A DNA stretch of 64,000 nucleotides. Origin: Chitinophaga pinensis. Lineage in GTDB: Bacteria; Bacteroidota; Bacteroidia; Chitinophagales; Chitinophagaceae. The number at the start of each line of letters is the position of its first letter. Position 1 is the stretch's first letter. Below, in pieces: positions 4,680-54,245 of the stretch. The DNA is taken from positions 1 through 64,000 of the forward strand of contig CAMDVD010000008.1 of NCBI GenBank assembly GCA_945878115.1, given 5' to 3'. The position numbers were made by a program, and so were the translations under genes. The notes beneath the pieces are model-generated. The model was not told where the DNA came from and ran no database searches. It saw only the letters and a program-made list of their open reading frames with translations.

Positions 4680-7094
4680 ATGGAAGGTGCTATCGTTTTA
4701 TTGATCATTATTCTTTTAGGGATTTTGGTAATACCGATTTTTTTAGCCATCAATACGAACAATAAAGTTGGAGATTTAAGGCAAGAATTAAACCTTATCA
4801 AAAATCAACTTAGATTACTGAATGAGACCTTACAAAAAGCAGAGTCTTCGGTAAACAAGCAAGAAAAAATAATACCTTCCATTCGTATTGAACCAATACT
4901 TGAAAAGAAACAAGAACCATTACCTCCAATTATGGAGAAAGTAATTCCAGTTGTTATACCAGCCGAAGAAACAACAAAACCAATTGATGATAGCAAAGAA
5001 AAAGAGATCATTCCGAAAACAATTATCCATCCTATTCATACCCCTCCTCCTCGTATTATCAAATCAAGTTCTATAACCAATTTAGAGCAGTTTATAGCCG
5101 AAAAACTGATAAGTATAGTAGGTATAGCCATATTGGTATTAGGCATCTACTTTACGGTTAAATGGGCTATTGATCGTAATTTAATAACCAATGGTGGTAA
5201 GGTTTTGATTGGATTATTCGCAGGAACAATTCTAATTGCTGTAGCTCATCGTTTAAGTAAAAATTACAGAGCATTTAGTTCTATATTAGCTGGTGGTGGA
5301 GTGGCAGTATTCTATTTCACCATTTACGAGGCCTATCAAGCATATCATCTGTTTTCACAAACTGCTGCTTTTTCTATCATGATTTTAGTAACAATTTTAG
5401 CTGTTACATTATCCATCATTTATAATAAAAAAGAACTGGCTATTATCGCTTTGGTGGGCGGATTTAGCACCCCTTTCTTTGTGAGTAATGGTTCGGGTAA
5501 TTATCAAATTCTATTTACTTATATGCTCATTTTAAATGAAGGTATGTTCGTTTTAGCATCTTTCAAGAAATGGAATATCATCAATATCTTAAGCTATGCT
5601 GCTACGATATTAATTTTTGGTGGATGGATGACAGAAAGCTATGATATTACAAAAGGGCATAATCTAGGTGGTTTTATTTTTGCTACATTATTTTATCTTG
5701 TTTTCTTTGGAATGAACCTAGTTTATAACTTGAAAAATCAAATAAAGTTTGCTGTATTAGAAATATCCTTACTATTAAGTACGACCTTTTTATATATGGG
5801 TATTGGATTGTATTATTTACATACGATACAAAATGGAGCTTATGAAGGATTGTTTTGTATAGGATTAGCAGTATTCAATTTCATATTTGCATTTCGCTTC
5901 TATAAACAAAAAAATGTAGACAAAAATTTAATCTATCTCTTAATAGGCTTGGTTCTTACGTTTGTAAGTTTAACTGGCCCGCTTCAATTACATGGTAATT
6001 ACATCACTTTATTTTGGGCATGTGAAATGGCATTATTGTACTGGTTGGGTGTTCAATCTAATATCGAACTCTTCAAAAATGGAAGTATTGCTATTTTGAT
6101 TTTAACAATAATAAGTCTAAGTATGGATTGGCAACAATCCTATTATACAATACATGTGAATAAATTAAATATAATCTTCAATAAGGTATTCATTACCGGG
6201 CTTGTTGTATTGACTGCATTGTATACTAAAATCTTATTCATCAAAAAAGACCAAAATGAAAGAATACTATGGTCCTATTTAAATAAAAAATATTATAAAA
6301 ATCTTTTACAAATACTGTTTCTAATAATACTTTATCTAGTTGGTATATTTGAATTACAATACCAAACTTACAATTGTACAAGACTGAGCGAATATATGCA
6401 TATCATGATATGGGTTTATCATTATCTATTTTTTGCTATACTTTATTATTATACGCTTCGTAACAAGAATGTGTTGAATCAACAAGTAATAACTAGTCTA
6501 GTTGGCATTTCTTTGTTATTCTATGTAATTGCAAATGCTCAAATTATTTCTCTACGAAATTTTCATCTTATTGAACATTCTTGCAGCTTATATTATAGTT
6601 GGCATTATCTGATCCCTATATTTGCTTTACTAAATTGCTATATACTTATTCAATATATTAGAAAAACCTACAAACAAAATAATAAATGGTATAAAGCAAG
6701 TTGTTGGTTTATTAGTGTTACCATTTTAACGATTTTAAGTTCTGAAATTATTCATATATGGGTAAGTACATCCTTTGCTACAGGATTCTCCATTGATGCA
6801 TACAAAATCAAAGCGATTAAAGTAGCTTTACCTATCTGTTGGAGTCTTTTCTCCTTGATAATCATGCTGTTAGGTATGCGTAAAAAAATTAAACTGTTAA
6901 GAATCATTGCTTTATGTGTGTTCACAATTACCATCCTGAAGCTCTTTGTATATGATATTTCTACAATGGGACAAGGTGCAAAAATTGTAGCCTTTATACT
7001 CCTTGGTATAATCTTATTAACTGTTTCCTTTTTATATCAAAAAATTAAAGGCTTATTTATAGATGATACAAATCAAACTTTAAATGAAAAATAA
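4680..7094 (+). CDS. DUF2339 domain-containing multi-pass membrane protein
   Basis: 804 aa with many TM segments. The motif SRIxxxLEQFIAEKLISIVGIAILVLGIYFTVKWAIDRNLI is typical of DUF2339. Paired with a DUF3999 gene. Confidence 0.85.
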   Translation: MEGAIVLLIIILLGILVIPIFLAINTNNKVGDLRQELNLIKNQLRLLNETLQKAESSVNKQEKIIPSIRIEPILEKKQEPLPPIMEKVIPVVIPAEETTKPIDDSKEKEIIPKTIIHPIHTPPPRIIKSSSITNLEQFIAEKLISIVGIAILVLGIYFTVKWAIDRNLITNGGKVLIGLFAGTILIAVAHRLSKNYRAFSSILAGGGVAVFYFTIYEAYQAYHLFSQTAAFSIMILVTILAVTLSIIYNKKELAIIALVGGFSTPFFVSNGSGNYQILFTYMLILNEGMFVLASFKKWNIINILSYAATILIFGGWMTESYDITKGHNLGGFIFATLFYLVFFGMNLVYNLKNQIKFAVLEISLLLSTTFLYMGIGLYYLHTIQNGAYEGLFCIGLAVFNFIFAFRFYKQKNVDKNLIYLLIGLVLTFVSLTGPLQLHGNYITLFWACEMALLYWLGVQSNIELFKNGSIAILILTIISLSMDWQQSYYTIHVNKLNIIFNKVFITGLVVLTALYTKILFIKKDQNERILWSYLNKKYYKNLLQILFLIILYLVGIFELQYQTYNCTRLSEYMHIMIWVYHYLFFAILYYYTLRNKNVLNQQVITSLVGISLLFYVIANAQIISLRNFHLIEHSCSLYYSWHYLIPIFALLNCYILIQYIRKTYKQNNKWYKASCWFISVTILTILSSEIIHIWVSTSFATGFSIDAYKIKAIKVALPICWSLFSLIIMLLGMRKKIKLLRIIALCVFTITILKLFVYDISTMGQGAKIVAFILLGIILLTVSFLYQKIKGLFIDDTNQTLNEK

Positions 7095-8376
7095 ACGAAC
7101 AACTACTAAACGCCTTCTTCTGGTTTTATTCATAGTTTATGGTCAAGTTGGATTCGCTCAAAACTTTACCTATAAATCTAAAATAAATTCGATTGCTAAA
7201 AATGCTTTTTATAAGGTACTATTAAGCAGTGAATTAAGCGCGCACAGTTCCAATCATTTAGAAGATCTACGCATAATTGACAATAAAGGAAAAGAAATAC
7301 CCTATTTACTTACAAAAGAATCTTCTTATGGTTCAAAAAGTAATTTTATACAATATACCATTCTAGAGAATAAAAATGATAATCAATGGCAAACAATAAT
7401 CATTGAGAATCCGAATAAGGATAAAATAAATAAATTCATTTTAGAAATGAAAAATTCAGATGCCAATCGAATTCTGCAAATGAGCGGTAGTAATGACAAG
7501 AAAAAATGGTTCGTTGTTAGAGACAACTTTTACTTTACATCCTATAACAATGAAAATACGAGTAACATTCAAAAAGAAATAGCATTTCCTAGTAGTGATT
7601 ACTTCTATTATAAAATTGGCATTAAAAATAAGGATAAAAATCCAATTAACATACTAAGTGTAGGTCATTATACTAACACGATACAGATACCTTCTTTTCT
7701 CACCATATCAGGCCTTAGCTATAAAATCAGAACGTCTAATAAAAAAACTTATATTACCTGTGTATGTTCACCAGCTAATAGAATAGATCGATTGAAATTT
7801 TATATTTCATCACCCACAATGTATAAACGACTAGGTAAAATAACGAACAACACCGAGAATGAAAAAATAAAAGAAGATTACACAATAAGACCTTTAGGTT
7901 CTTCCTCAAAATTATATAAACGGAGCCCAGAAAGCCGTCCTTCAACAGATTTTGAATTTAATTCAGAAGTGAAAGCTATTATCGAAACAGAAAATATCCT
8001 AAGCAATAATAAAACGGATAGTTTTACAATTGAAATTAATAATCAAGATAATGAAGCACTTCAAATAGACAGCATCTCCGCTTTTCAATTAACAACAACC
8101 CTTACTGCATCACTAGACAAAGACAAGTCCTATTTTCTTTATTTTGGGGATAGTTTATTACAGTCACCCAATTATGATTTACCTTATTTTCAAAATAAAA
8201 TATCAACTGAGATTGACGCCATAACAATAGGTCCAGTAGTACCAAAAGAATCAAAAATTGCAGACGAATACACCAATGATAATAGTGTACTTTATGTTTG
8301 GATAGGGTTGGCAATCATAGCATTAATACTGATCTATCTTACGACAAATATGCTAAAAAAGATGAAAACAGAATAA
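7084..8376 (+). CDS. DUF3999 family protein
   Basis: Overlaps the DUF2339 gene by 11 nt. Signal peptide, beta-rich exported domain and C-terminal TM; this pairing is characteristic. Confidence 0.7.
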   Translation: MKNKRTTTKRLLLVLFIVYGQVGFAQNFTYKSKINSIAKNAFYKVLLSSELSAHSSNHLEDLRIIDNKGKEIPYLLTKESSYGSKSNFIQYTILENKNDNQWQTIIIENPNKDKINKFILEMKNSDANRILQMSGSNDKKKWFVVRDNFYFTSYNNENTSNIQKEIAFPSSDYFYYKIGIKNKDKNPINILSVGHYTNTIQIPSFLTISGLSYKIRTSNKKTYITCVCSPANRIDRLKFYISSPTMYKRLGKITNNTENEKIKEDYTIRPLGSSSKLYKRSPESRPSTDFEFNSEVKAIIETENILSNNKTDSFTIEINNQDNEALQIDSISAFQLTTTLTASLDKDKSYFLYFGDSLLQSPNYDLPYFQNKISTEIDAITIGPVVPKESKIADEYTNDNSVLYVWIGLAIIALILIYLTTNMLKKMKTE

Positions 8377-18507: not shown

Positions 18508-18741
18508 ATGAAAGATCAAATTATTAATATCGATTCCGAAATTCTAGGTGGAACACCGGTATTTTATGGAACACGAGTGCCAATCAAGAACTTATTTGAT
18601 TATCTAGAATCTGGTGAATCCATAGATTTTTTCCTTGATGACTTTAGCGGTGTACAGAAAGAACAAGTAATTAAACTTTTAGAGATGTCGAAAAACCTTA
18701 TTGAATCATCTGCAAATATTTTACATGAAAATTTTGCTTGA
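18508..18741 (+). CDS. DUF433 domain-containing antitoxin
   Basis: INIDSEILGGTPVFYGTRVPIKNLFDYLESGESIDFFLDDFSGV. Confidence 0.92.
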   Translation: MKDQIINIDSEILGGTPVFYGTRVPIKNLFDYLESGESIDFFLDDFSGVQKEQVIKLLEMSKNLIESSANILHENFA

Positions 18742-19051
18742 TGAATGTGTTACAAAACATTTAAAACCGTTTTTATTAAACCATGAAGTATTTACAGTTC
18801 GAGAAATGGATTGGAGCGGGTTAAAAAATGGAAAATTAATGGCGCAATGCGTAGAAAATAATTTCGAAATTCTATTAACTATAGATAAAAATTTACAGTA
18901 CCAACAAAATCTTGAAAAGTATCCTTTAACGATAGTCATACTAAATTGCCCTTCAAGTAAAATAGAAGACCTTAAAGAGTTTGTTCCAATATTTTTAGCT
19001 AAAACTTCAAGTTTGGATAAACATAAAGCTTATATAATAAATAATGATTGA
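18725..19051 (+). CDS. DUF5615 family PIN-like toxin
   Basis: MKILLDECVTKHLKPFLLNHEVFTVREMDWSGLKNGKLMAQC...FEILLTIDKNLQYQQNL. Overlaps the antitoxin gene. The ORF track start at 18701 is probably too far upstream. Confidence 0.88.
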   Translation: MKILLDECVTKHLKPFLLNHEVFTVREMDWSGLKNGKLMAQCVENNFEILLTIDKNLQYQQNLEKYPLTIVILNCPSSKIEDLKEFVPIFLAKTSSLDKHKAYIINND

Positions 19052-21914: not shown

Positions 21915-22276
21915 TGAGGAAGCAAATATAAATGTAATTTCTTTGGCCTGTCATTCAATTATTAAGATATATAGTGGTTAATAAACAAGGAGTAATAGAG
22001 TTTAGGAAATGATATGTCTTCATGTAAATGAATTTTATAAAAACTTTAATCAGTTTCATGGCATCTTCATTTTTCCACAGAAGGAGTAAAATGACGGTGT
22101 ATATACTAAAAATAATAGACAATCAACTATATATAAACAAGTTATTCATATTAAATGATTTTATATAGAAAATTATTTCTATTTTAGCGCTGTTGAAAAA
22201 AATGAGCAAAATTCTTAAACTAAAACTTAAAAATTTCACTGTTGTTTCATTTTAAAACACGTGATACATTAAGCCC

Positions 22277-23419
22277 ATGAGACTTTTATCTTTTATAGAC
22301 TTTTTATATTCATACTACGCTCGTGTAACGTCTTTTCCGCTTATTATACAAATTTGTATCATATTCATATTTGGATGTATCTTGTTGTTTTCTTTGTTTT
22401 TATCCTTGATGTCCTTTATACGTGTAAAATATAATAGACAGCAATACTTGGAAGATAAATATATACCGATCATTGATGAACTTATTTTGAAATATTTATT
22501 TGAAAGCACGAGGGAATATACACTAGTAGAGATATATGATGATTTTTATCAAAGCTTGGGTAACCTTAAAAAGGAAAACTTGAATTTGATTATCCAAAGG
22601 CTTATTCAGTGTAAAAGGAATTTTGACCTTTCATTTAATGAACCATTTAATAGATTGATGACTGCATTAGGGATAGAAGGACATATTGAAAAGAAATTTA
22701 ACTTTTCGAATTCCTATGAAAAAATGAAGGGTATTCAAGAATTATCTTCATTGGCAATCACTGCGGCGGAATCCAATATATTCCCATTTACCTATAGTGG
22801 TAATTTCAATATCAGAAAGGAAGCACGTAACTCCTATTTACGTTTAAGTAAAAATGATCCATTTAAATTTTTTGAAGAAACCACTGAAGAATTGAATGCT
22901 TGGGATCAAATTAATTTATTGAAACATTTGGCGAATTTTGAAAATAAAACAATTCCCAATTTCAGTAAATGAATATCTTATTCTACGAATGATTCAGTAG
23001 TTCAATTTTCGATTCGTATGTGTTCGTATTTTAAACAACATGAAAGTATACCCGCATTGACAAAATTTTTAGCAACGTCTAAACATGTGCTTCGGGCCGA
23101 TGCAATCAAGGCATTGGGTGAACTAAAAGCGATAGAAACGGAAGGATTGTTAAAAGACATGTATATCAATCAACCTGATATTTGTCAATCCGCTATTGTG
23201 GTAGCCATTGGGGAATTTAGAACAGGTAAATCATTACAGTTTTTAAAAGATGCATTTGATTCGGCGATTAACTCGGAGGTAAAGAAAATTGCCGCAACTG
23301 CTTTATACAATTATGGTATGGATGGAAAGTTAGCTTTTCAAGAAATTATGATTAACAGTGATATTTTTTCTGCATTGATTTTGCAACATATTGCAAACCC
23401 ATTAATAAAATTCAAGTAG
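22277..23419 (+). pseudogene. HEAT-repeat membrane protein split by one in-frame TGA at 22970-22972
   Basis: The two track ORFs (22277-22972 and 23018-23419) are in the same frame (offset 741 nt). Read-through sequence is ...PNFSK*ISYSTNDSVVQFSIRMCSYFKQHESIPALTKFL. N-terminal TM helix; HEAT-like repeats in the second part. Confidence 0.7.
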
Positions 23420-23423
23420 AAAA

Positions 23424-24866
23424 ATGATAGATCAAATCAGAACCTTCTATGAGTATTTCATTTTTTTCTATGCAACATCACTGTTTCTTAGCTATATTAT
23501 TTTGGCTGTTTTGTCTTTCATCGCCATTTCAAAATATAAAGGTTATAATTCAGATCTAGATGATAATACTTTAATGGCATCGCCGCTAACACCTGGTATA
23601 TCAGTGGTTGCGCCTGCGTTCAATGAAGGGGTTACTATCATATCCAATGTACGTTCGTTGTTGACCTTAAATTATCCGTTATTCGAAGTAATCATTATCA
23701 ATGATGGTAGTAAAGACGATACCTTGCAAAAGTTGATTGATGAATTTCAATTGGTAGAAACGGAATTTGCCTACAATGAGAAAATCAAAACCAAACCAGT
23801 AAAAAGAATTTTTAAATCTATTAATCCGGCGTTTAATATCTTAACCGTCGTAGATAAAGAAAATGGTGGTACAAAAGCGGATGCCTCTAATGCAGGTATA
23901 AATGCGTCCTCATTTCCTTACTATTTATGTACAGATGTGGATTGTATTTTGGATAGAAATACTTTATTGAAATTGATTAAACCTATTTTAAATAGTACTA
24001 AAAAGGTAATTGCCGTAGGTGCCGTTTTGCGGATGTCTAATAGTTGTGATATTAATGAAGGAATAATCACTCGAGTACGTCCTCCACGAGGATTGATTGC
24101 TCGTTTTCAAGAAATGGAATATATCCGAGCTTATTTGCATAGTAAAATGGGCTGGTCACTTGTAAATTGTGTACCCAATATATCTGGTGGATTAGGTTTA
24201 TTTGATAAGGAAGTTTCTGTAAATGCAGGTGGATATGATCCGTTGTCGCATGCTGAGGATATGGATTTGATTACGCGGATGATTGCGTATATGATTAATA
24301 ATAATTCGAAATATGCTTTATCTTATATACCATTATCTTGTTGTTGGACGGAAGGGCCTCCCAACGTGCAAATATTGTATAGACAAAGAACGAGATGGGG
24401 ACGAGGATTGATGCAATTGTTTTTTGTACATCGAAAAATATTATTCAATCGAAAATATAAAAGACTAGGATTAGTGGTATTTCCTTATGCATTTGTATAT
24501 GAGTTATTGGCACCAATCATTGAGGCCTTGGGATGGATTTTCTTTATTTATCTTGTCATCACCAATCAAGTGAATTGGAGTATGGCAGTTATTATTCTTA
24601 TTTATTCGTATACATTTTCTGTCATGGTTTCTACTATGGTAATTTTATGGGATCAAATAACCTTCAAATATTATAAAACCTTTCGAGAGGTGATGTCATT
24701 GGTTTTACTTACTTTTTTAGAATCATTTATTTATCACCCGCTCATCATGTACTTTGCAATTCGAGGATATATTTCTTTCTTTACACAGAAAAAATTTCAG
24801 TGGGGCTCTATGACCCGCCAAGGATTTGAATCTAAAGATGCATTAACACCAAAAGTGACTGCCTAA
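23424..24866 (+). CDS. Membrane glycosyltransferase family 2 (processive synthase-like)
   Basis: VVAPAFNEGVTIISNVRSLLTLNYPLFEVIIINDGSKDDT; TDVDCILD; HAEDMDLITRM; QRTRWGRG (QxxRW); flanking TM helices. Confidence 0.93.
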   Translation: MIDQIRTFYEYFIFFYATSLFLSYIILAVLSFIAISKYKGYNSDLDDNTLMASPLTPGISVVAPAFNEGVTIISNVRSLLTLNYPLFEVIIINDGSKDDTLQKLIDEFQLVETEFAYNEKIKTKPVKRIFKSINPAFNILTVVDKENGGTKADASNAGINASSFPYYLCTDVDCILDRNTLLKLIKPILNSTKKVIAVGAVLRMSNSCDINEGIITRVRPPRGLIARFQEMEYIRAYLHSKMGWSLVNCVPNISGGLGLFDKEVSVNAGGYDPLSHAEDMDLITRMIAYMINNNSKYALSYIPLSCCWTEGPPNVQILYRQRTRWGRGLMQLFFVHRKILFNRKYKRLGLVVFPYAFVYELLAPIIEALGWIFFIYLVITNQVNWSMAVIILIYSYTFSVMVSTMVILWDQITFKYYKTFREVMSLVLLTFLESFIYHPLIMYFAIRGYISFFTQKKFQWGSMTRQGFESKDALTPKVTA

Positions 24867-24868
24867 AT

Positions 24869-27766
24869 ATGAAGCAACCAAAAAAGTTATATATTCTAAG
24901 AGCTTTGTTCCTATTCATCTTGCTTATCGGTGTGTATGGCAGTGGAAATGCGCAGACTAAGAATTCGCAAAATTTATCTTCAGACGAGTATTTTCGTTTG
25001 GCAAAAATTGAAGCAAATCAAAAAGGAAATTATCCTTTAGCGGTAAGTTATTGTAAAAAAAGTTTGCAAAAATCGCCTGATAATATGGACGTTCATTTGC
25101 TTTTAGGTAAATGTTATTTAGAGATAGAAAATTATGATAGTGCGAGGTATGAATTAAAAAAGGTAGCAGATGCTTATCCGCATAGCGTGGACTCAAGGCA
25201 CTATTTAATTAATGTGGAGTATAAAACTGGAAGATATTCTAGTGCGATTTGTTATATCAATGAATTGTTGGAAGTTAGACCATATAGTAGAACACTTTGG
25301 TTGAAGAAGGTATCCATCTATAATGATATGGGTAATACGGTCGAAGCCAAAAGAGCATTAACCCGTTTGTTCAGTATTTATCCGACAGATACGATGGTTA
25401 AAAATGCGTATCAAGAATTGATATTGAATGAGGCGGCTAGGTATTACAAAAATGGAAATTTTACGAAGAGTAGTGAACTGTTGACTAAAGCATTGGAAGC
25501 AAATCCTAGAGATTTATTGACTTTACACCAACAAGTCAATAATTTTTTAAGTGCTGGTAAACGCTCTGATGCTATGGGTTTGATAGAATCTGGATTGTCT
25601 AATTTTCCTGGAGATCCGATTTTGATTGAGAAAAAAATAGGGGTACTTCAAGAAATGGGAAATTATCAGGATGCTTTGGCCTTTACGCAAGCCACCATGA
25701 AAAAATACCCAAGCGCTAAATTAAGAACACTAGCCAATGACTTGCAACTTCAGGCGGCAGAATTTTATATGAACAATGACCCTTATGTTTTGTATCAAAA
25801 AATATATGCTACCAATCCAGGTAATGAAGAAGCGTTCACGTATTTATTAAATAATTCTTTGACCAAAGGATATTATAGTGATGCTGAAGAATATATTAAA
25901 ATAGCGTTGAAGAGAAGTCCGAATAATAAAGTGGTATTGATGAAACAATTGACGCTTTTTGAATTGGAACACAAAACAGCAGAGGCAAATAAGGCGATTG
26001 AAAAATTAGTGACGATGTTCCCTTCGGATGGCGAGTTGCAAGATAAATATTCAACTATTTTACTCGCACAAGCGAAAGGTTATTTTCAAGATCAATTGTA
26101 TACACAAGCACAACCATTATTTGAAAAGTTAATGCGATTTCCGGATATGATATCTACGGCGAATGATTATTTATATTCTATTCAATTGGCGCAAAAAAAT
26201 TATAGTGCAGCTTTGATACTCATCAATAAACAAATAGCTCGTTATCCTCGTGATGAAAATTATGTTTTCAAAAAGGCTTCATTACTTGAAGAGATGGGTA
26301 AATATGACGATGCCATTGAAATTACAAATAGACTGACGAAAAAGAATCCTACGAATAGTTTATACAAACAATCTTTCATTTCGCAATCCATTCCTTATAT
26401 CAAACAACTCATGGAAGATGAGAAATATGATAGTGCCATGATAGTGATTGACAGGCTATTGGAAAATGATCCAACCAATTTATTGGCTTATAATTATGCC
26501 ATCAATGTACAATCTATCATTAAGGATTATAAAAATGGATTAGAGTATTGCGATCAGGCATTGCGTTATTATCCAGATTCAAGAGAAATAAAATTAAAGA
26601 AAGCTAGTTTGTTTAGTTCTCTTAATGATTATGATCAATCTGTAGGAACCTTTACGGAGTTAGAATCGCAGTATCCGTATAATGGAAAAATAAAAACTGC
26701 GTTAGCAGAAGAATTAGCTCGGGTTGCAAAGAATTATGAACGAGCGAATAACCAAGATTCGGCCATTTATTATTATGCCAAAGCCTATAATGTATCGCCT
26801 TTGGATACCTTTTCATTGTATCGCATGATCAATATACAATTGACGAATAAAAATTATGACCTTGCTTCTGCATTAATAGATTCAGGATTGGTGAAGTATC
26901 CAGATAATTCTTATTTGTATTATAAGAAAGGCGTTCTTTTAGAAATGCAAGAAAAATATGATTCGGCTGCTATTTTTCTAAAAAAGGGAGAACCGCAATA
27001 TGGCGATTCACCGAATTATTTAAATTATCTGGACTACCTTTTAGGCAAGTCGTATAAACATCAAGCAGGTATTAGTTTTATAAGAACTTATTATGATTCT
27101 TCTGTATTACGTTCTTCTATCGCGTCGTTTGAATACACTACCTACAAGCCAAAAAATACGTATACTTATCATTTCAATTATGCTGCAAGGCCAATAGGAA
27201 CTGGCGTACAACATGAAATGGATTGGATACATAAATATGAAAATAAGCGATATAGATTAGTCAATGTTGCAGTCGCCAATAAGTTTGTATTTCCTTATTT
27301 TAAACTTGGCGTTTCTTTTTATAAGAAAACAAAAAAATATGATATGCAGCGTGAGTTAGGTTTAAGATATGTATTACAAAAGGATAAAAATAGTTTGGTT
27401 TCGGTAGTGGGTGGTTTAGAAAAAGAATGGAATGATGTTTGGGTAAATGCGCGTGCTTTTGTGATGACCGACTTTAGTAATTTATACCAAACTATTACAC
27501 TGCAATCACGTTATTATTTTAATTTACGCAATGATTATATAATGGCAATGGGATCACTTGGTACACCACCTGAAGATAAAACATTAGATTTTCAAGTGAA
27601 TACTTTTTTACAATATGTGACCAGAATGGTAGGTGGCGGTTACCAACATGCAATCAAGCATAGAACTACCATAGGCATACAAGGGAATTGGTATAATTTC
27701 AAAATTGAAAAAACGAATTTTGTAAATCAGTACAATCTCTTTATCACATTACTGACTAAATTTTAA
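24869..27766 (+). CDS. TPR-repeat protein with C-terminal YaiO-like outer membrane beta-barrel
   Basis: Signal peptide, then about 700 aa of TPR units, then the beta-strand-rich segment FEYTTYKPKNTYTYHFNYAARPIGTGVQHEMDWIHKYE...NLFITLLTKF ending in an aromatic residue. Confidence 0.85.
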   Translation: MKQPKKLYILRALFLFILLIGVYGSGNAQTKNSQNLSSDEYFRLAKIEANQKGNYPLAVSYCKKSLQKSPDNMDVHLLLGKCYLEIENYDSARYELKKVADAYPHSVDSRHYLINVEYKTGRYSSAICYINELLEVRPYSRTLWLKKVSIYNDMGNTVEAKRALTRLFSIYPTDTMVKNAYQELILNEAARYYKNGNFTKSSELLTKALEANPRDLLTLHQQVNNFLSAGKRSDAMGLIESGLSNFPGDPILIEKKIGVLQEMGNYQDALAFTQATMKKYPSAKLRTLANDLQLQAAEFYMNNDPYVLYQKIYATNPGNEEAFTYLLNNSLTKGYYSDAEEYIKIALKRSPNNKVVLMKQLTLFELEHKTAEANKAIEKLVTMFPSDGELQDKYSTILLAQAKGYFQDQLYTQAQPLFEKLMRFPDMISTANDYLYSIQLAQKNYSAALILINKQIARYPRDENYVFKKASLLEEMGKYDDAIEITNRLTKKNPTNSLYKQSFISQSIPYIKQLMEDEKYDSAMIVIDRLLENDPTNLLAYNYAINVQSIIKDYKNGLEYCDQALRYYPDSREIKLKKASLFSSLNDYDQSVGTFTELESQYPYNGKIKTALAEELARVAKNYERANNQDSAIYYYAKAYNVSPLDTFSLYRMINIQLTNKNYDLASALIDSGLVKYPDNSYLYYKKGVLLEMQEKYDSAAIFLKKGEPQYGDSPNYLNYLDYLLGKSYKHQAGISFIRTYYDSSVLRSSIASFEYTTYKPKNTYTYHFNYAARPIGTGVQHEMDWIHKYENKRYRLVNVAVANKFVFPYFKLGVSFYKKTKKYDMQRELGLRYVLQKDKNSLVSVVGGLEKEWNDVWVNARAFVMTDFSNLYQTITLQSRYYFNLRNDYIMAMGSLGTPPEDKTLDFQVNTFLQYVTRMVGGGYQHAIKHRTTIGIQGNWYNFKIEKTNFVNQYNLFITLLTKF

Positions 27767-27774
27767 TACACTAA

Positions 27775-30057
27775 TTGAGAGTCATAATGAGAGGATCCTT
27801 GAAGACATCGATATTAATCCTATTCTTTAATGTAATAGGCATTGGGGGCATTATTTCTTGTAAACCAATCTCGAAAGATTTTATTTTTTATAAAACTGCA
27901 GTAACCATACCTATTGTTGTATTGCCAAATAGCCCAAAAAATATTGAACGAAAAGCAGCACAATTATTTATAGAAAATTTCAAATTAATTACTGGCGAAA
28001 CGATTCAATCTATTTCTGAATCAGCGGCAGTTAAAAATGAAAAATCTACTTATTTATTTCTAGGAAATACAAAGGCATTTCAAAAAATAAATAAAAATGG
28101 AAATTTTGAAAGTGATGGATATGCGATGATACAAGAGGATAATGCCATTTATTTGAATGGATCAAATGGCATAGGCGTTATCAATGCAGTGGTTTATTTT
28201 TTAGAACATTATGGCGGTATAAAATATATTGATGTTGCGAATAAAACATTTTCGCAGATTCAACAAATTAGTATTCCGCAACAAACGCAATATTATTCTA
28301 CACCTGCTTTTACGTATAGAGAAGCATCTTACCCAGCCGCTTTAGATTACAATTATGCACTATGGAATGCATTACATATTAAGGAAGAGGTGTGGGGATG
28401 TTGGGGTCATAATTTGCATAAATTATTGAATGAACAAACCAAAAATTCACCTTCTATTTATGCAACCATAAATGGGAAAATAAATAAAGAGCAATATTGT
28501 TTTTCAAGCAATGAATTATATGAAGGTATTGCCACTGGCATTGAATTGAAATTGGCTAAAAATCCAGATGCAAATTATTTTTCTATTTCTGCAAATGACA
28601 ATGGACTAGTTTGTCAATGTCCCATTTGTACTGGTCAAAATAAAGGCAATCAATCGGCTTCCAATTCTGTTTGTTTATTGGTAAAAAAATTAGCTGAGCG
28701 TTTTCCAGATGCTATCATTTCAACACTTGCTTATCGAACAACATTGCAAGCACCAAGTAATATAGTACTACCTAAAAATACGGCGATACTTTTAAGTACT
28801 ATCGATTTTCCAAAGGGACAAGCATTAAAAAATAGTACCTCTAGTGCAGCGTTTAAAAAATTGGTGACAAACTGGAAACAAGTCAGCAGCAATTGTTTGG
28901 TATGGGATTATCCTGTTCAGTATACAAACTATTTTGATTTTTTTCCAACCATAGCTATCTTGCAACAAGACTTACAGTATTTTAAAGAAATAGGTATTAC
29001 GGGTGTATTTGAACAAGGAAGTGAAAATGATTATAGTACTTGGTGTGATTGGAAATCCTTCGCATCTGCTAAATTGTTGTGGGACCCGTATACGAATTTA
29101 GATTCATTGCGTTATAGTTTTTTTGAAAATGCGTATCCTGAACAAGTCGATTTTTTACATGATTTCTTGATGCAACTAGAAGCAAATTTAAAAAAGTCGA
29201 AAAAGAATGTAGATATTTATGGCACTATGTTCCAATCCTTAAATAGCTATTTAACTCAAGAGGAATTTGATTTATTTTATTATGAATTATGCGATAAATA
29301 TTTGACAGTAAGTGGAAAAGAAAAAAGTCGTTTAACCCAACTCCTCACTGCTTTAGTTTTTAATAAATTAGAAATGATACGATTGGGTGGATTAAGCGCG
29401 CAAGGATATGCAACAGCGGATGGCTTAGGCAATAGACATTTGAATACAGAAATCAATAAGTTACTTACCAGTTTACAGCAATATGCTGGTCAATCTAAAA
29501 TATATGTGTATGATGAAGATGGGGATTCCATCTCTCAATACGTTCGACAATGGAATGATTTTATCATCAACAAGGATGGTAAAAATTTATTGTATAATAA
29601 AACGATTACCATACAAGATACTTATGATAAGGATTACCATGGCGATGCTACACATGCTTTGAATGATGGTGCTATCGGCTTCTTAGATTACGCAACGAAT
29701 TGGTTATTATTTAATAATAAGGATATGGAAGTTGAAATACCAATTGCCAATATCGCCGCGTTTAAAAAACTATCCTTAAATTTTCTGTGTGATGTAAGGC
29801 ATACATTTTATTATCCTGAAAAGGTCAGTGTTTATGGGATAGGTAAAAATGGAGTGCCTACTTTATTGGCAGAAAAAACACCAACGCAAATAGAGACTTC
29901 TGAAAAATATAAATATACTTTTACATTTGATTGGGCGCAAAAACCAGCTTATGAAAAAATAAAAATAATTGCTATAAATAAACGAAATTTGTCCGAGCAA
30001 TTTTATCAACCAAATAAAAAAGCAACAATAGCTTGTGACGAAATTGTAATCCAATAA
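27775..30057 (+). CDS. DUF4838 domain-containing lipoprotein, putative glycoside hydrolase
   Basis: GIISCKP lipobox; GYAMIQEDNAIYLNGSNGIGVINAVVYFLEHYGGIKYID; CQCPICTGQNKG; ITGVFEQGSENDYSTWCDWKSFASAKLLWDP; C-terminal beta-sandwich. ATG start may be 27787. Confidence 0.75.
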   Translation: MRVIMRGSLKTSILILFFNVIGIGGIISCKPISKDFIFYKTAVTIPIVVLPNSPKNIERKAAQLFIENFKLITGETIQSISESAAVKNEKSTYLFLGNTKAFQKINKNGNFESDGYAMIQEDNAIYLNGSNGIGVINAVVYFLEHYGGIKYIDVANKTFSQIQQISIPQQTQYYSTPAFTYREASYPAALDYNYALWNALHIKEEVWGCWGHNLHKLLNEQTKNSPSIYATINGKINKEQYCFSSNELYEGIATGIELKLAKNPDANYFSISANDNGLVCQCPICTGQNKGNQSASNSVCLLVKKLAERFPDAIISTLAYRTTLQAPSNIVLPKNTAILLSTIDFPKGQALKNSTSSAAFKKLVTNWKQVSSNCLVWDYPVQYTNYFDFFPTIAILQQDLQYFKEIGITGVFEQGSENDYSTWCDWKSFASAKLLWDPYTNLDSLRYSFFENAYPEQVDFLHDFLMQLEANLKKSKKNVDIYGTMFQSLNSYLTQEEFDLFYYELCDKYLTVSGKEKSRLTQLLTALVFNKLEMIRLGGLSAQGYATADGLGNRHLNTEINKLLTSLQQYAGQSKIYVYDEDGDSISQYVRQWNDFIINKDGKNLLYNKTITIQDTYDKDYHGDATHALNDGAIGFLDYATNWLLFNNKDMEVEIPIANIAAFKKLSLNFLCDVRHTFYYPEKVSVYGIGKNGVPTLLAEKTPTQIETSEKYKYTFTFDWAQKPAYEKIKIIAINKRNLSEQFYQPNKKATIACDEIVIQ

Positions 30058-30060
30058 AAA

Positions 30061-30624
30061 ATGAAACGAAAACAAAATGTACCATTTTATGTAATTGCCA
30101 TACTAACTTGTAGTATTTATTTTGCTGCCTGTAGCATTGATAAAGGGAAAGCGAATTTGGCTAAAACTACCGTACATTTTAAGGATTCTATTCGACATTA
30201 TTTTGCCGTACCACAGGGTAAAGATTTGACTATCCCATTTACATTTTATAATACTGGTCAACATCCTTTGGCTGTTCTTGAAGTACAAACTTCTTGTGGT
30301 TGTACCAAAGCAGAATTTCCATCAAGGCTAATAGAATCAGAAGGTCAAGGCGATATCGTATTGCATTATAATAGTATCATGAATATTGGCTATACGCAGA
30401 TTTATGTTACTGTAATTATGAATACAGCGCCAGTATCTATTCATACATTAATCTTTGATGTGAATACCGTTCCTAATGCTTTGTATGTAAAAGATTATGA
30501 AGAACTATATGACGAGGAACAAGAATTGAAAAAGAAAACAGGTGTAGAAAATGCGGTTGATGGTGATGAAACGCAAGCGGAGAAAAACTATTATACCGAT
30601 TCATTAGCGTACGATACTTATTAA
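30061..30624 (+). CDS. DUF1573 domain-containing lipoprotein
   Basis: FAACS lipobox; FTFYNTGQHPLAVLEVQTSCGCTKAEFPSRLIESEGQGDIVLHYNS. Confidence 0.88.
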   Translation: MKRKQNVPFYVIAILTCSIYFAACSIDKGKANLAKTTVHFKDSIRHYFAVPQGKDLTIPFTFYNTGQHPLAVLEVQTSCGCTKAEFPSRLIESEGQGDIVLHYNSIMNIGYTQIYVTVIMNTAPVSIHTLIFDVNTVPNALYVKDYEELYDEEQELKKKTGVENAVDGDETQAEKNYYTDSLAYDTY

Positions 30625-33039: not shown

Positions 33040-33128
33040 GTATTGCGGCAACGATAGAAGTGGAAATCCTTTTTGCTTGCTCTGAAGCAAAAAGATTGGA
33101 ACGAATAGCGTGTGTGCCGCCCAAATAA
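33040..33128 (+). repeat. Dispersed structured intergenic repeat, copy 1
   Basis: ATTGCGGCAAcGATag...GTGGAAAtCC ... GCCGCCCAAA ends; internal perfect hairpin CTTTTTGCTT-GCTCTG-AAGCAAAAAG (33069-33094). Confidence 0.6.
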
Positions 33129-47375: not shown

Positions 47376-50300
47376 ATGAAAAAAATATCTACCTCATCCA
47401 TTTTCCGCTTACTTAGTATCTCATTTCTTCTACTTCTTATGGTTGTAAAAAGTTATGCTCAATGTAATTTAACCTCAAATAATCCAGGTGGTGGATCTCT
47501 TCTTTTTGCTGGAGCGGCTCCAATTGACAATTGTACTTTTGTTGGTGGGGCACTTAATCAAAAAGGAAATGCAATACTCTATACTGGGCTTACACCAGGT
47601 AATATTTATTCTGTAGGGAATTGTACTTCTATTGGTGGCTTGAATGGAGGAGGAACTGGTACTACAGTTACTGTTTATGATAATGTATCTCTTACGATGA
47701 TACCTGGTGCGTTTGCGAGTTCAGCAGGCATTAATGCAACTGATGGAGTTTGTGTTACTTTTACTTGCCCTTTAGGTGTGACATCTATTCGCGTATTATT
47801 GCACGATAATTTTTGTAATAGTATTACAACAACTGCTACCGGAAATACAATTAGAATAAAATGTCTTTCTTGCTCTTTACCAACTCCTGTAATTCCAAAT
47901 TTAAGCTGTGTGAATTATACAGCACCAGCAAATGGAACAACCAATATCAGCACTAATCCTGCCTTTGGTTGGTCTGCTGTTGGTACAAACACGAGTACCT
48001 TATATGATTTATATTTAGATAATGTTGATGGAACTACTTTATATCAATCTAATTTATCGACTAATACATTTACCATACCAATTTCTACGCCATTATTATG
48101 CGGAACTACCTATACATGGCGAATAATGCCAAAAAACTGTTTTGGACAAGCTACAACGCCAATTACAAATTGTCCAACTAGTAGTTTTACCACTCTAGGA
48201 TCTGCACCTGTAATATGTCCTACACTTTCAGCGCCAACAAATGGATTAACAGGTGTTGCGCAAAACCCGACCATTTCATGGACAGCCGTTTCGGGAGCTA
48301 CATTTTATGATTTATACTTAGATAATGTAAATGGTTCTAATTTATTTCAAGGAAATATTACAACAACTTCATTAGCTCTTTATAGCAGTGCTGGACAATA
48401 TTTTACACCAACTTTAGCCTGCAATACAACGTATTATTGGAAAGTAGTTGCTAAAAATAATTGTGGTGCAACCACTTGTTCTATGACCAATAGTTTTACT
48501 ACAGTAAATGCAGTTCCAGTTTGTGCTGCAATAACTGCACCATTGAATGCAGCAACTGCCCAAAGTACTACACCAACCTTAAGCTGGGCTGCTTCAACAA
48601 ATGCCACGAAATATGATATTTATTTAGATAATTTATCAGGAGCAGCAGCAGCTACTACTTTAATTAAATCGGATTGGAACGGGATTACTTATACCATTCC
48701 TTTCGCATCGCAATTGTTGTGCGGTACATTGTATAGTTGGAGAGTAGTGGCAAAGAATGATTGTGGTGCATCAACTGCTTGCACTGTTAATACTTTTTCA
48801 ACCGCTGCAATAGCTCCCGCTTGCCCAGTTTTAAATGCTCCAACAAATGCCGCGACAGGTGCTGCACTAAATCCTGCTCTAACATGGACTGCAAGTACTG
48901 GAGCCACTTCTTATGATATTTATTTAGATAATGGAACTGGTACCACTTTATTTGAAAGCAATATTCCATTAACTAGTTATACCGTGCCAACAACTCGAAC
49001 ATTATGCGCAGGAGGTACTTATACTTGGAAGGTGATTGCCAAAAATGCTTGCGGCGCTTCCACTGGATGTAGTTCTTTTTCTTTTACAACTGTTAGTAGC
49101 ACACTTGGATGCCCTGTGATGACAGCACCAGTAAACAATGCGGTTGCACAAACTTTAACACCTTCATTAACATGGACATCGGCAACTGGACCAGCAACAT
49201 TATATAATGATATTTATTTAGACAATGGTACAGGTACTACATTGTATGCAGCTAATGTTACTGGGAATACCTTTATTGTATCAAATAATACACCATTGAA
49301 TTGCAATACTACTTATACTTGGAAGGTTGTTGCAAAAAATGCTTGTGGAACTTCAACAGGTTGTAGTACTTTTTCTTTTACAACTTTAAGCACTGCACCA
49401 ACAATTTGTCCTACTTTATCAGTACCAGCCAACGCAGCAAATGTATATACAAAAACACCAGTACTTACTTGGGTGGCATCTACTAATGCTACAGCATATG
49501 ATGTATACTTAGGAATAGGTACTCCTGTACTAGTGGCTACTGTACCTGGTAATGTACTTTCCTATACCGTACCACAAACTAGTGCATTAACATGTGGCTC
49601 TACATATTCTTGGAGAATAGTTCCAAAAAATGCATGTGGCTCGGCTACTACTTGTACTACATCAAATACATTTACAGTAAGTACACCATTTTCAACTTGC
49701 CCTACATTAACGCCAGCAAACGCAGCAACAGCCATTTCAACCACACCATTACTTTCATGGACAGCAGTTGCAGGAGCAGAGTTGTATGATATTTATTTGG
49801 ACAATGCAACTGGTACTACTTTATTCAAGGCCAATATTCCTGCTGCTCAAATAAGCTATAATGTTTTACCTTCTGAGCAATTATTATGTAATACACTTTA
49901 CACTTGGAGAGTTATCGCCAAAAATCAATGCGGACCAGTAGCTAGTTGTCCAGCAAGTACATTTACAATAGTGAATGCAACAGGTGCTTGTGCAACACTT
50001 ACTGCACCTGCGAATAATGCAACTGCCCAATCGATGACACCAACTTTTACTTGGACAGCACCTGCTACACCTAATTTAGCAGTGTCATATGATTTATATT
50101 TAGATGCTGGTTTGGGTGGTACAACTTTCGCAGCAAATATTGGGATATTACCAGGAGCTACCGCACCACAAACATCTTACGCATGGCCAACTAGTAGTCC
50201 TTTATTGTGTAACACAGTCTATACATGGCGCATTGTACCACGTTTTTGTGGTAACGTACAACAAGCAGTTACTGCATGTCCTACAACATTTACATTTACT

Positions 50301-53300
50301 ACAGTGAGTCCAGCGGTGGCAACTGTAACTTCTTCTATTCCGGTTGCAGGTCTTTGTGGAAGTAGCAAAGTAACATTGACGGCAACAGGAGCAACACCAC
50401 AACCAGGTGTTACTTATCAGTGGTTAGAATCATCTAGTCCAAGCGGTCCATTTGTTCCATCTACTTCAGGCTTCGGTATGAATACAACCGTATATCAACC
50501 AGCATTAACAACTTCTACCATTTATTATCAATTCAAAACTACAGCTAATAATCCTGGAACTTGCTCACCTGCAATTTCAGCTACATATACAGTGGCTGTA
50601 GGCGCTGCACCAACTGCTCCAATAGCAAACAATAGTATTCAATGTGGCCCTGGAATTCCAACCGCTTCTGTTACTTCAACTGCAGGTGCTTCAGGAACAG
50701 GACAAATGTATTGGTATTCAGCACCATCTGGTGGAACATTAGTGCAAGGACCACCAGTAAGTGGGCCAGGATATAATACATTCCAAACTTCTATCAGTAC
50801 AACTCAAAATTATTTCGTTTCAGAAAATAGTGTTAATGGTTGTCCAAGCCCTAGAACACAAGTTACTGCTTCAGTAGGTCAATTACCAATACTGACTACA
50901 ACACAAACACCATCTGGTATTCAATGTTATGGTGTACCAATTACTTTGCATGCAACTGGTGCAAGTACTTATTTATGGAATGGCAATGCCACTACTGTTT
51001 TGGGTGATACTACATTTTCAAATGGACCTCCAGGTACTTATACCGTAACTGGTACGGATGCAATAGGTTGTTCATCAACTAAAACGATAACGGTTGCATT
51101 ACATCCATTGGTAGTTAATACGACAACTAATGCAAGTCCAGCTACTTTTTGTATTGGGAACAGTACAAGTTTGACAGGTTCATCTGCTCCTATTTGTGGT
51201 GGAAGTCTTACAACATTTGCAGGCATTTATGCACCAGCCAATTGGATATTTAGTTTAACCAATTCAAATGGTACAGTGAATACAGGAAGCGCACCAACAA
51301 GTATTACCATGACTTCGGGTACAAATAATAATGCGGCAGGTAATCCAGGAACAACAAATTATGCAATGACCTTTGGATGCGCTGGTACTGTGAGTTTCAA
51401 CTGGTCTTATTCAACGCCTGATTTACCACCATTTGACTATCCACAGTATACAATTAATGGAGGTGCTCCAGTTGTTTTCCCTGGTTTTAATTTAGGCGGT
51501 GCAACGGTACAAAGTGGATCTGCTTCTATTAGCGTTCCGGCAGGTGGAACATTAACTTTGCAGGCTTATACAGCAGATAATGACCTTTCACCATGTTCGA
51601 TTACGGTCAGTGGTTTTTCAGGGCCTAACGCGCCAATTAGTAGTTCAGTGAGTATTTGGACTGCAGCAACAGGTGGTTCGAATTTAGGAACGCCACCCTT
51701 AACAGTAACTCCATTAACATCTGGCACGGTTACTTATTACGCTTCCTTTACAGCGAGTAATACAGGTTGTACAAACCCAACAAGAGTTCCAATTGCATTA
51801 ACTGTAAATGCATTGCCAACGGTAACTTCAACTCCGGCAGCGCCTAATGTTTGTGCAGGTTCTAGCTTGACATTGAATGGAGGCGGTGCAGATTCCTATA
51901 CATGGACAGGTGGTATAACAAATAATACTTCATTTATTCCAAGTGGAACAGCAACCTATACTGTAACTGGTGTTGATGCAAATTCTTGTTCGAATACAAC
52001 TACGGTTTTAGTAACTCTTAGTTCATTACCAACAGTTACAGCAACGCCTGCAACAAGCACTGCTTGTGAAAATTCAAACGTGACTTTAGCAGGTGGTGGT
52101 GCTTCAACCTATTCTTGGACTGGTGGTATTACAGATAATACTCCATTCACTGCAAGCACAACGACTACTTATACAGTAACTGGTACAGATGCTAATTTAT
52201 GTTCTGCAACAGCAACTGCTGTATTGAATGTAAATCCTGCACCTTCCTTATCGGTTTTACCTTCTTCTTCTGTAAGTGTTTGTGATGGCTTGTCTACCAT
52301 GTTATCTGGAAATGGTGCCGATACCTATTCATGGACAGGTGGTATAAGTGATGCAACCGCATTCACACCTACTTCAACTACAACATATACTGTTACAGGT
52401 ACGAATACAGGTACAGGTTGTACAAATACAACCATAGCTACAGTAACAGTTAATCCAATTCCAACATTAGGTACAACCAATGCAAATCCAAGCACGGTTT
52501 GTTTTGGAATACCTACACTTTTAAGCTATTCGGATGCAGCACAAATTACCAATTGGTATACAGCAGCCTCTGCTGGAACTAATGTAGGTACTGGAACTAC
52601 ATTAAATCTTACACCAAGCACTTCTGGTTCATTAAATTATTATGCAGAAGTATCGGATGCAGTAACTGGTTGTGTAAATACAAATCGTGTCGCTACTGCA
52701 GTAACTGTAAATGCATTACCTAATGTAACTGCTACCCCTTCTATCCAGGGTGTTTGTGAAAATAATATGGCTAACATCGTGGGAGGTGGTGCTACATCCT
52801 ATTCATGGACTGGTGGTATCAACGACAATACACCTTTTGTAGTCACTGGATCTAATACCTATACCGTAACTGGTACTGATGGTAATAACTGTCAAAACAC
52901 AGCGACAGCAGTAGTTACAATGAATGCTTTACCTATTGTAGGTGCATCTGCAACTCCTTCTAGTTTATGTATTAATTCATTAGCAGTATTAAATGGTAGT
53001 GGTGCGGCAACGTATTCATGGACTGGAGGCGCAATGGATAATGCACCTTTTGTAGCGACTTCAACAACAACTTATACAGTAACTGGTACGGATGTGAATA
53101 CCTGTACTGCTACAAGCGTAGTTACTGTAAGTGTAAATGCGGCTTCTGGTGTATTAGCATTAGCTAGCTCTGGAAATTCTTCTTCTAATACAGGTAATTC
53201 AAATCAATCACAAACTCAACCTGATGGTACCTCTGTAGATTATTATGATGCTAGTTGTAATTTAATATCCAATGTGAATGATGGTTCTGGTGGTAATATT

Positions 53301-54245
53301 CTTGGTAATACAGTCAGCAATGTAACTGTAGATGCAACCGTAAATAATTATAATGGTCAACCTTACGTTCGTCGTTGGTATCAAATCACACCAACAAATA
53401 ATGGTCCTGCAACTATTACATTATATTTAACGCAAGATGATTTCGATGATTATAATGCAGCAAATGGTGCATTCCCAGACTTGCCAACTTCAGGCAGTAA
53501 CAGTGATCCAAATATTTCTGCTATTCGTGTGTCTAAAGTAGATGGTATATTAGGTTCTGGAACCCCAACTGTAATTATGCCTACTGCTGTTAACTGGAAT
53601 GGAAATTATTGGGAAATTACATTCCCAGTAGCAAGCTTTAGTCAATTCTATTTCCATGCAGCTAACCCACTAAATTCAGCACTTCCAGTAAATATCACGA
53701 GCTTCACTGGTGAAAAATCAGCAACAAGTGATTTATTGAATTGGAACACAAGTAGTGAGCAAAACAATGCATACTTTAATTTGCAACATAGTACAGATGG
53801 TACACATTTTACATTATTAGATAAAGTGAATACAAAAGCAGTGCATGGCAATAGTAATTTACCATTGCAATATGCATACGAACATAAAACGCCAACATTA
53901 GGTCATAATTACTATCGTTTAGAACAAGTAGATATTGATGGTAAAGCATCAATACATCAAAAAATAGTAGACTTGATATGGGCTGCAAATGGCAGTACGG
54001 TAAGCATTTATCCTAATCCAACACAGGATGTATTGCAAATAGATTTGTATACGGTGAAAGAACAAAATACGACGATTAAAATCATGGATATGAGTGGTCG
54101 TATTATTAAACAAGTACAAGCTAAATCTATAAAAGGATTGAATAATTTGAGCATCAGCTTAGGCGAATTTGCAAATGGTGTTTATACAGTGCAAATATTT
54201 GAAAATAACCAATTAACGCAAGTTAGTAAAGTGAATAAAAACTAA
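47376..54245 (+). CDS. Giant secreted repeat protein (8 FN3-like + ~6 PKD/Ig-like repeats, T9SS type A sorting domain)
   Basis: 2289 aa; signal peptide; repeats CPxLxAPxNxATxxxxxPxLxWxxxxGAxxYDIYLDNxxGTTLF...CGTTYTWKVVAKNACG; repeats GGGAxTYSWTGGIxDNTPFxxxxTTTYTVTGTDxNxC; C-terminal ISIYPNPTQDVLQIDL...GVYTVQIFENNQLTQVSKVNKN. Confidence 0.93.
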   Translation: MKKISTSSIFRLLSISFLLLLMVVKSYAQCNLTSNNPGGGSLLFAGAAPIDNCTFVGGALNQKGNAILYTGLTPGNIYSVGNCTSIGGLNGGGTGTTVTVYDNVSLTMIPGAFASSAGINATDGVCVTFTCPLGVTSIRVLLHDNFCNSITTTATGNTIRIKCLSCSLPTPVIPNLSCVNYTAPANGTTNISTNPAFGWSAVGTNTSTLYDLYLDNVDGTTLYQSNLSTNTFTIPISTPLLCGTTYTWRIMPKNCFGQATTPITNCPTSSFTTLGSAPVICPTLSAPTNGLTGVAQNPTISWTAVSGATFYDLYLDNVNGSNLFQGNITTTSLALYSSAGQYFTPTLACNTTYYWKVVAKNNCGATTCSMTNSFTTVNAVPVCAAITAPLNAATAQSTTPTLSWAASTNATKYDIYLDNLSGAAAATTLIKSDWNGITYTIPFASQLLCGTLYSWRVVAKNDCGASTACTVNTFSTAAIAPACPVLNAPTNAATGAALNPALTWTASTGATSYDIYLDNGTGTTLFESNIPLTSYTVPTTRTLCAGGTYTWKVIAKNACGASTGCSSFSFTTVSSTLGCPVMTAPVNNAVAQTLTPSLTWTSATGPATLYNDIYLDNGTGTTLYAANVTGNTFIVSNNTPLNCNTTYTWKVVAKNACGTSTGCSTFSFTTLSTAPTICPTLSVPANAANVYTKTPVLTWVASTNATAYDVYLGIGTPVLVATVPGNVLSYTVPQTSALTCGSTYSWRIVPKNACGSATTCTTSNTFTVSTPFSTCPTLTPANAATAISTTPLLSWTAVAGAELYDIYLDNATGTTLFKANIPAAQISYNVLPSEQLLCNTLYTWRVIAKNQCGPVASCPASTFTIVNATGACATLTAPANNATAQSMTPTFTWTAPATPNLAVSYDLYLDAGLGGTTFAANIGILPGATAPQTSYAWPTSSPLLCNTVYTWRIVPRFCGNVQQAVTACPTTFTFTTVSPAVATVTSSIPVAGLCGSSKVTLTATGATPQPGVTYQWLESSSPSGPFVPSTSGFGMNTTVYQPALTTSTIYYQFKTTANNPGTCSPAISATYTVAVGAAPTAPIANNSIQCGPGIPTASVTSTAGASGTGQMYWYSAPSGGTLVQGPPVSGPGYNTFQTSISTTQNYFVSENSVNGCPSPRTQVTASVGQLPILTTTQTPSGIQCYGVPITLHATGASTYLWNGNATTVLGDTTFSNGPPGTYTVTGTDAIGCSSTKTITVALHPLVVNTTTNASPATFCIGNSTSLTGSSAPICGGSLTTFAGIYAPANWIFSLTNSNGTVNTGSAPTSITMTSGTNNNAAGNPGTTNYAMTFGCAGTVSFNWSYSTPDLPPFDYPQYTINGGAPVVFPGFNLGGATVQSGSASISVPAGGTLTLQAYTADNDLSPCSITVSGFSGPNAPISSSVSIWTAATGGSNLGTPPLTVTPLTSGTVTYYASFTASNTGCTNPTRVPIALTVNALPTVTSTPAAPNVCAGSSLTLNGGGADSYTWTGGITNNTSFIPSGTATYTVTGVDANSCSNTTTVLVTLSSLPTVTATPATSTACENSNVTLAGGGASTYSWTGGITDNTPFTASTTTTYTVTGTDANLCSATATAVLNVNPAPSLSVLPSSSVSVCDGLSTMLSGNGADTYSWTGGISDATAFTPTSTTTYTVTGTNTGTGCTNTTIATVTVNPIPTLGTTNANPSTVCFGIPTLLSYSDAAQITNWYTAASAGTNVGTGTTLNLTPSTSGSLNYYAEVSDAVTGCVNTNRVATAVTVNALPNVTATPSIQGVCENNMANIVGGGATSYSWTGGINDNTPFVVTGSNTYTVTGTDGNNCQNTATAVVTMNALPIVGASATPSSLCINSLAVLNGSGAATYSWTGGAMDNAPFVATSTTTYTVTGTDVNTCTATSVVTVSVNAASGVLALASSGNSSSNTGNSNQSQTQPDGTSVDYYDASCNLISNVNDGSGGNILGNTVSNVTVDATVNNYNGQPYVRRWYQITPTNNGPATITLYLTQDDFDDYNAANGAFPDLPTSGSNSDPNISAIRVSKVDGILGSGTPTVIMPTAVNWNGNYWEITFPVASFSQFYFHAANPLNSALPVNITSFTGEKSATSDLLNWNTSSEQNNAYFNLQHSTDGTHFTLLDKVNTKAVHGNSNLPLQYAYEHKTPTLGHNYYRLEQVDIDGKASIHQKIVDLIWAANGSTVSIYPNPTQDVLQIDLYTVKEQNTTIKIMDMSGRIIKQVQAKSIKGLNNLSISLGEFANGVYTVQIFENNQLTQVSKVNKN

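Follow-up and report, generated by a model that had tools for sequence, protein, structure and literature searches.

Our analysis indicates that the five genes at positions 22277 to 30624 of the window (the whole 64,000-nucleotide stretch of Chitinophaga pinensis DNA under study) probably form a synthase-dependent exopolysaccharide operon that is Pga-like in logic yet not Pga, with a HEAT protein (plus, in most relatives, a receiver) as the module in place of PilZ/c-di-GMP parts. Such an export operon had been proposed by a sequence-only reading, and the compact unit, the GT2 synthase, the TPR protein with its barrel, the glycoside-hydrolase-like lipoprotein, the lack of PilZ and the conservation all withstood closer analysis; operons of this kind are generally not without a regulator, since most relatives carry a receiver gene. 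A GT2 synthase combined with TPR repeats, a barrel and a periplasmic hydrolase is the logic of the Pga, Bcs and alginate systems (PMC9601211). We found no published description of the gene cluster in the open-access literature (PMC full text) that was searched.

Gene content and predicted parts of the operon

All five genes lie on the + strand with gaps of only 2-8 nt, and their coordinates, spacings and domains (ORFs, Pfam) agree with the initial description of co-directional, tightly packed genes. The next gene downstream, encoding PurN (30664), is outside the conserved unit. Scans for promoters, terminators and the Bacteroidetes -33/-7 motif gave chance-level results only. The first gene (22277..23419, +; 380 codons) encodes a HEAT/TM protein (HEAT_2, Pfam 5.5e-8) and comprises two listed ORFs, 22277-22972 and 23018-23419, in a single frame. 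It was rightly counted as an operon member, with the correction that in the assembly it is interrupted by one in-frame TGA (22970..22972, +).

Elsewhere in the window we noted a match to the Flavo-1 sRNA family (33043-33119, +; 59.6 bits), a short ORF (18701-19051, +) that by eye resembles a DUF5615/PIN-like toxin component, a gene for a DUF2339 membrane protein whose downstream neighbour, DUF3999-like, overlaps it (4680-8376, +; possibly another envelope system), and a 2289-aa protein (47376-54245, +) in which Ig-like domains are combined with a GH85_C-like stretch and a type IX secretion tail.

The second gene (23424..24866, +; 480 aa) encodes a GT2 synthase of processive type (Glycos_transf_2, Pfam 4.4e-16). 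Its motifs DGSKDDT, TDVDC, AEDMDL and QRTRW show no disruption and agree with 176 relatives in the catalytic columns; the processive-synthase signature recognized earlier (DVD, ED, QRTRW) extends, together with DGS, to all 177 aligned sequences, in which the D/DxD/ED/QxxRW motifs are uniform. Hydropathy places membrane segments near both termini (residues 11-38 and a cluster at 348-441), as expected of a synthase with a transmembrane channel. The protein is predicted to be an inner-membrane processive synthase, the kind of enzyme on which a synthase-dependent exopolysaccharide pathway is built.

The third gene (24869..27766, +; 965 aa) fuses a TPR scaffold to a YaiO-type outer-membrane beta-barrel. 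The TPR region (approximately residues 35-700, about 650 aa) follows a signal peptide and would provide the periplasmic TPR protein of such a pathway. The YaiO barrel domain (PF19413) was detected at residues 730-903 with 2.4e-24 and 86.7 bits, above the cut-off of 23.9 bits. With NCBIfam OMP_YaiO_dom (TIGR04390), the window protein gave no match at E<=0.001, and a type B relative (see below) scored 170.6. E. coli YaiO was rejected as a direct relative of the barrel, as it failed to align to the window barrel profile. In an AF2 model of the C-terminal 265 aa (pLDDT 89.3, pTM 0.83), 14 long strands form the outer-membrane barrel that had been postulated; OmpG/CymA were the best structural matches, and the polysaccharide exporters PelB and PgaA were also matched. 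The sequence-only reading had likened the protein to PgaA or AlgK+AlgE. The fusion of TPR and barrel in one chain resembles PgaA, and the modelled strand number differs: PgaA, BcsC and AlgE have 16-18 strands, the range described for outer-membrane pores of synthase pathways (PMC9601211). Judging from the model, a 14-strand barrel may be narrow for a polymer.

The fourth gene (27775..30057, +; 760 aa) starts with TTG, an in-frame ATG at 27787 being possible, and encodes a lipoprotein with the lipobox IISC. Its resemblance to a glycoside hydrolase was confirmed by DUF4838 (PF16126; 8.1e-61, 206.4 bits, cut-off 26.6), which has been named GH163 endo-beta-N-acetylglucosaminidase (PMC9870897), GH163 being a family of such enzymes (PMC9870897, PMC10154615). 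The window copy conforms to all 45 invariant columns of its GH163 clade. A phmmer search of the PDB with the single protein gave no match; a 31-row profile reached the outer domains only, namely an NAGLU_N-like N-terminal domain and a C-terminal domain matching that of a solved beta-hexosaminidase, with the catalytic barrel outside the matched regions. The fifth gene (30061..30624, +; 187 aa) encodes a DUF1573 lipoprotein (PF07610, 5.5e-18), whose lipobox was likewise read from the sequence.

The operon resembles PgaABCD (poly-beta-1,6-GlcNAc) in that PgaC/IcaA is the nearest curated family for the GT2 protein, the exporter unites TPR and barrel in one chain as PgaA does, and a periplasmic GH-like lipoprotein stands in the place of PgaB. 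It differs in its 14-strand YaiO-type barrel and in the HEAT protein, to which the relatives usually add a receiver, and the scores are far under the curated cut-offs. The best NCBIfam model of the GT2 protein, PgaC_IcaA (7.2e-33), gave 114.1 bits at an equivalog cut-off of 422.3, and the TPR part, for which PgaA is the closest curated family among polysaccharide porins, gave 72.4 bits at a cut-off of 366.65. Moreover, Pfam found neither PgaD nor the PgaB deacetylase in any operon protein. PilZ was also absent from these Pfam matches, in agreement with the sequence-only reading, and a PgaD/PilZ partner within the operon was therefore rejected. The Bcs cellulose system (BcsA-BcsC-BcsZ) shares a processive GT2, a TPR-barrel exporter and a periplasmic glycosidase with the window, and the CelA and BcsC models match weakly; however, the window lacks PilZ and BcsB matches, and its hydrolase belongs to GH163 rather than GH8.

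Conservation across Bacteroidota and a branch without the receiver

The HEAT protein was found in 43 genomes of an even set of 396 Bacteroidota genomes. All 43 encode a YaiO barrel, in 42 of them within 10 kb of the HEAT gene, compared with 74 of the 396 genomes overall (hypergeometric probability of this co-occurrence 9e-38, ignoring phylogeny). HEAT, GT2 and YaiO form the core unit, and the window locus has all three genes adjacent to each other. The order HEAT-GT2-(GT2)-TPR/YaiO-GH163 occurs in Chitinophaga, Taibaiella, Flavipsychrobacter, Olivibacter, Parapedobacter and others, several of the compared loci being of MAG quality. This gene order recurs in dozens of genomes, far beyond chance. 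Of the three findings that would have refuted the initial proposal (no C-terminal barrel, no membrane segments in the GT2 protein, no conserved neighbourhood), none was made.

In neighbourhoods of this kind (type A), a stand-alone CheY-like single-domain receiver is encoded directly upstream of HEAT, usually within 30 nt (64 of the 68 with visible upstream sequence). Two tandem GT2 genes, both with intact motifs, followed by TPR and GH163, are present in 50 of the 68. The acidic pair, acceptor Asp and Lys of the receiver are kept in the 28 aligned sequences, except that the acceptor is Asn in locus L113. In Chitinophaga loci, genes for CheB, CheR and a hybrid kinase lie divergently upstream of the operon. 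Three Chitinophaga loci (L104, L105, L106) have the receiver-HEAT-GT2-TPR/YaiO arrangement without GH163, and C. qingshengii and C. varians have a separate GH163-bearing copy on another contig (L068, L112).

Type B relatives retain the core of receiver, HEAT/TM, GT2 and YaiO but have an AlkP-superfamily (MdoB/LtaS-like) transferase instead of GH163, often fused to GT2 and otherwise encoded after it, and a shorter TPR-YaiO protein. A protein of ~390 aa that neither Pfam nor NCBIfam matches is repeatedly encoded beside their YaiO genes (L119 12429-13613 and homologues). One genome (G285, locus L169) carries a type B cluster (receiver-HEAT-GT2-AlkP-like-YaiO) directly before a type A cluster (HEAT-GT2-YaiO-GH163-receiver). 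The E. coli yaiS-yaiP-yaiX-yaiO locus also encodes a GT2 protein, YaiP (21% identity over 231 aa, 4e-7), with the YaiO outer-membrane protein; it has a deacetylase and an acyltransferase where the window family has HEAT, receiver, TPR and GH163.

The canonical system has two GT2 proteins, and the one-GT2 form with DUF1573 seen in the window is a separate branch. Its GT2 groups with those of loci L033, L113, L172, L173 and L177 (support 0.997). All of them, as well as L227 and L229, which were reached via GH163, have HEAT, one GT2, long TPR/YaiO, GH163 and, as a fixed fifth gene, a DUF1573 orthologue at the corresponding position, and no intact receiver. By tblastn, no receiver remnant was traceable in the window, including the non-coding upstream region (21915..22276) where relatives have the gene. 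The same-genus loci L113 and L033 have, respectively, the receiver without acceptor Asp and a frameshifted remnant.

The HEAT protein and alternative explanations

In the AF2 model of the HEAT protein of a same-genus relative (pLDDT 91.7), a single N-terminal TM helix continues into a long alpha-solenoid, which would lie in the cytosol because positive residues follow the helix. A SPOR-like periplasmic head on the L140 HEAT protein would fix the topology, but its Pfam match was below cut-off. HEAT-GT2 fusions (Rosetta-stone evidence) were considered for the unusually long HEAT frames that one family of the same class carries, but the extension is an acidic linker and not a GT2 domain.

The sequence-only reading had suggested a PilZ-independent co-polymerase. 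Independence from PilZ was upheld, whereas a cytosolic adaptor or regulatory subunit is more likely than a PgaD-type co-polymerase, because most relatives have the CheY-like receiver directly upstream. We regard it as conceivable, though leaning against it, that HEAT is nevertheless a structural co-polymerase (PgaD/BcsB-like) for extrusion or assembly and the receiver a separate regulator sharing the operon. HEAT nearly always adjoins GT2, PgaD is likewise a small membrane protein paired with PgaC, and HEAT persists even where a branch has no working receiver, which implies that it does more than bind one. A single TM helix with a long cytosolic solenoid fits this role poorly; moreover, PDB matches were to generic HEAT/ARM proteins only, so that HEAT is not a known co-polymerase. 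A segment differing between receiver-positive and receiver-less proteins also suggests a surface related to the receiver. Among 66 HEAT sequences of type A, 13 of type B and 8 from the receiver-less branch, types A and B share residues 130-149 (L113 numbering), a segment lost in the receiver-less branch, and are more alike there than type A and that branch, whereas over most of the remaining protein type A is closer to that branch than to type B. One of 5000 column shuffles reached this signal. The segment is a candidate receiver-docking surface, with the reservation that the correlation rests on one loss event.

The TGA replaces a Trp that is invariant in the 31 intact relatives aligned, and both same-genus relatives (L113, L033) have intact copies. 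Reading of TGA as Trp in this genome was rejected, as other long ORFs of the window are without in-frame TGA. Downstream of the TGA, every residue invariant in the relatives is kept, so the stop is probably either a recent change or an assembly error. The window strain thus has a wrong consensus base, a recent loss, or a synthase running without full-length HEAT; the stop may leave this copy partly disabled. It is unlikely that the whole copy is decaying and makes little or no polymer. The stop, the missing second GT2, the receiver lost here and degenerate in L113 and L033, and the presence of the GT2 in just three of 14 same-genus genomes (the window genome included) would fit decay, but GT2, TPR/YaiO, GH163 and DUF1573 are all open with their invariant residues kept, as is the HEAT part beyond the stop, and the layout of one GT2, DUF1573 and no receiver also recurs in other families, which argues for a stable branch.

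A very improbable alternative is a glycan-degrading or scavenging locus whose GH163 would break down external glycans, the role assumed in Polaribacter (PMC9870897). In Bacteroides, N-glycans are substrates of GH163 enzymes (PMC10154615), and many GH163 genes in the class stand apart from GT2. The unit, however, has no SusC/SusD, and GT2 and the TPR-YaiO barrel, which are biosynthetic and export parts, are the constant company of this GH163 clade.

Proposed mechanism and significance

Under the exopolysaccharide reading, GT2 would sit at the inner membrane, polymerising and extruding a chain of an activated sugar that is probably UDP-GlcNAc or closely related to it; the TPR region would guide it through the periplasm to the modelled 14-strand YaiO barrel as its exit, and the GH163-type lipoprotein would trim or edit it in the periplasm, the role of PgaB/BcsZ-type enzymes elsewhere. 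A GlcNAc-containing polymer is our best guess, at slightly less than an even chance, because the GH163 family comprises endo-beta-N-acetylglucosaminidases and PgaC is the nearest curated model for the GT2 protein; GH163 alone is no proof of it, since this family is also common outside such operons. In Polaribacter, the GT2 gene MED152_03905 was up 8.8-fold and the GH163 gene MED152_03915 up 18.5-fold in algal co-culture (PMC9870897). Judging by their locus tags, a single gene could lie between the two, and by analogy with L211 it should encode the YaiO protein. HEAT, tethered by its TM helix with the solenoid in the cytosol, would serve the synthase as adaptor or regulatory subunit. In most relatives, the phosphorylated receiver would dock on the solenoid and switch the synthase; in the window branch, where the receiver is lost or degenerate, the DUF1573 lipoprotein is present instead.

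The best studied synthases of secreted polysaccharides are tied to c-di-GMP. We tentatively propose, as a wider hypothesis that is somewhat more likely to fail than to hold, a phylum-wide class of Bacteroidota exopolysaccharide synthases that is switched directly by a phosphorylated stand-alone receiver docking on the HEAT solenoid around residues 120-150, in a two-component, c-di-GMP-independent manner, with branches such as that of the window lacking the receiver and carrying a DUF1573 lipoprotein. If true, such a system would explain possible matrix control in soil, freshwater and marine Bacteroidota and would assign a biosynthetic function to GH163 and MdoB/LtaS-like proteins. The induction of GT2 and GH163 genes in the presence of algae (PMC9870897) may then signal the making of a polymer rather than the eating of glycans.
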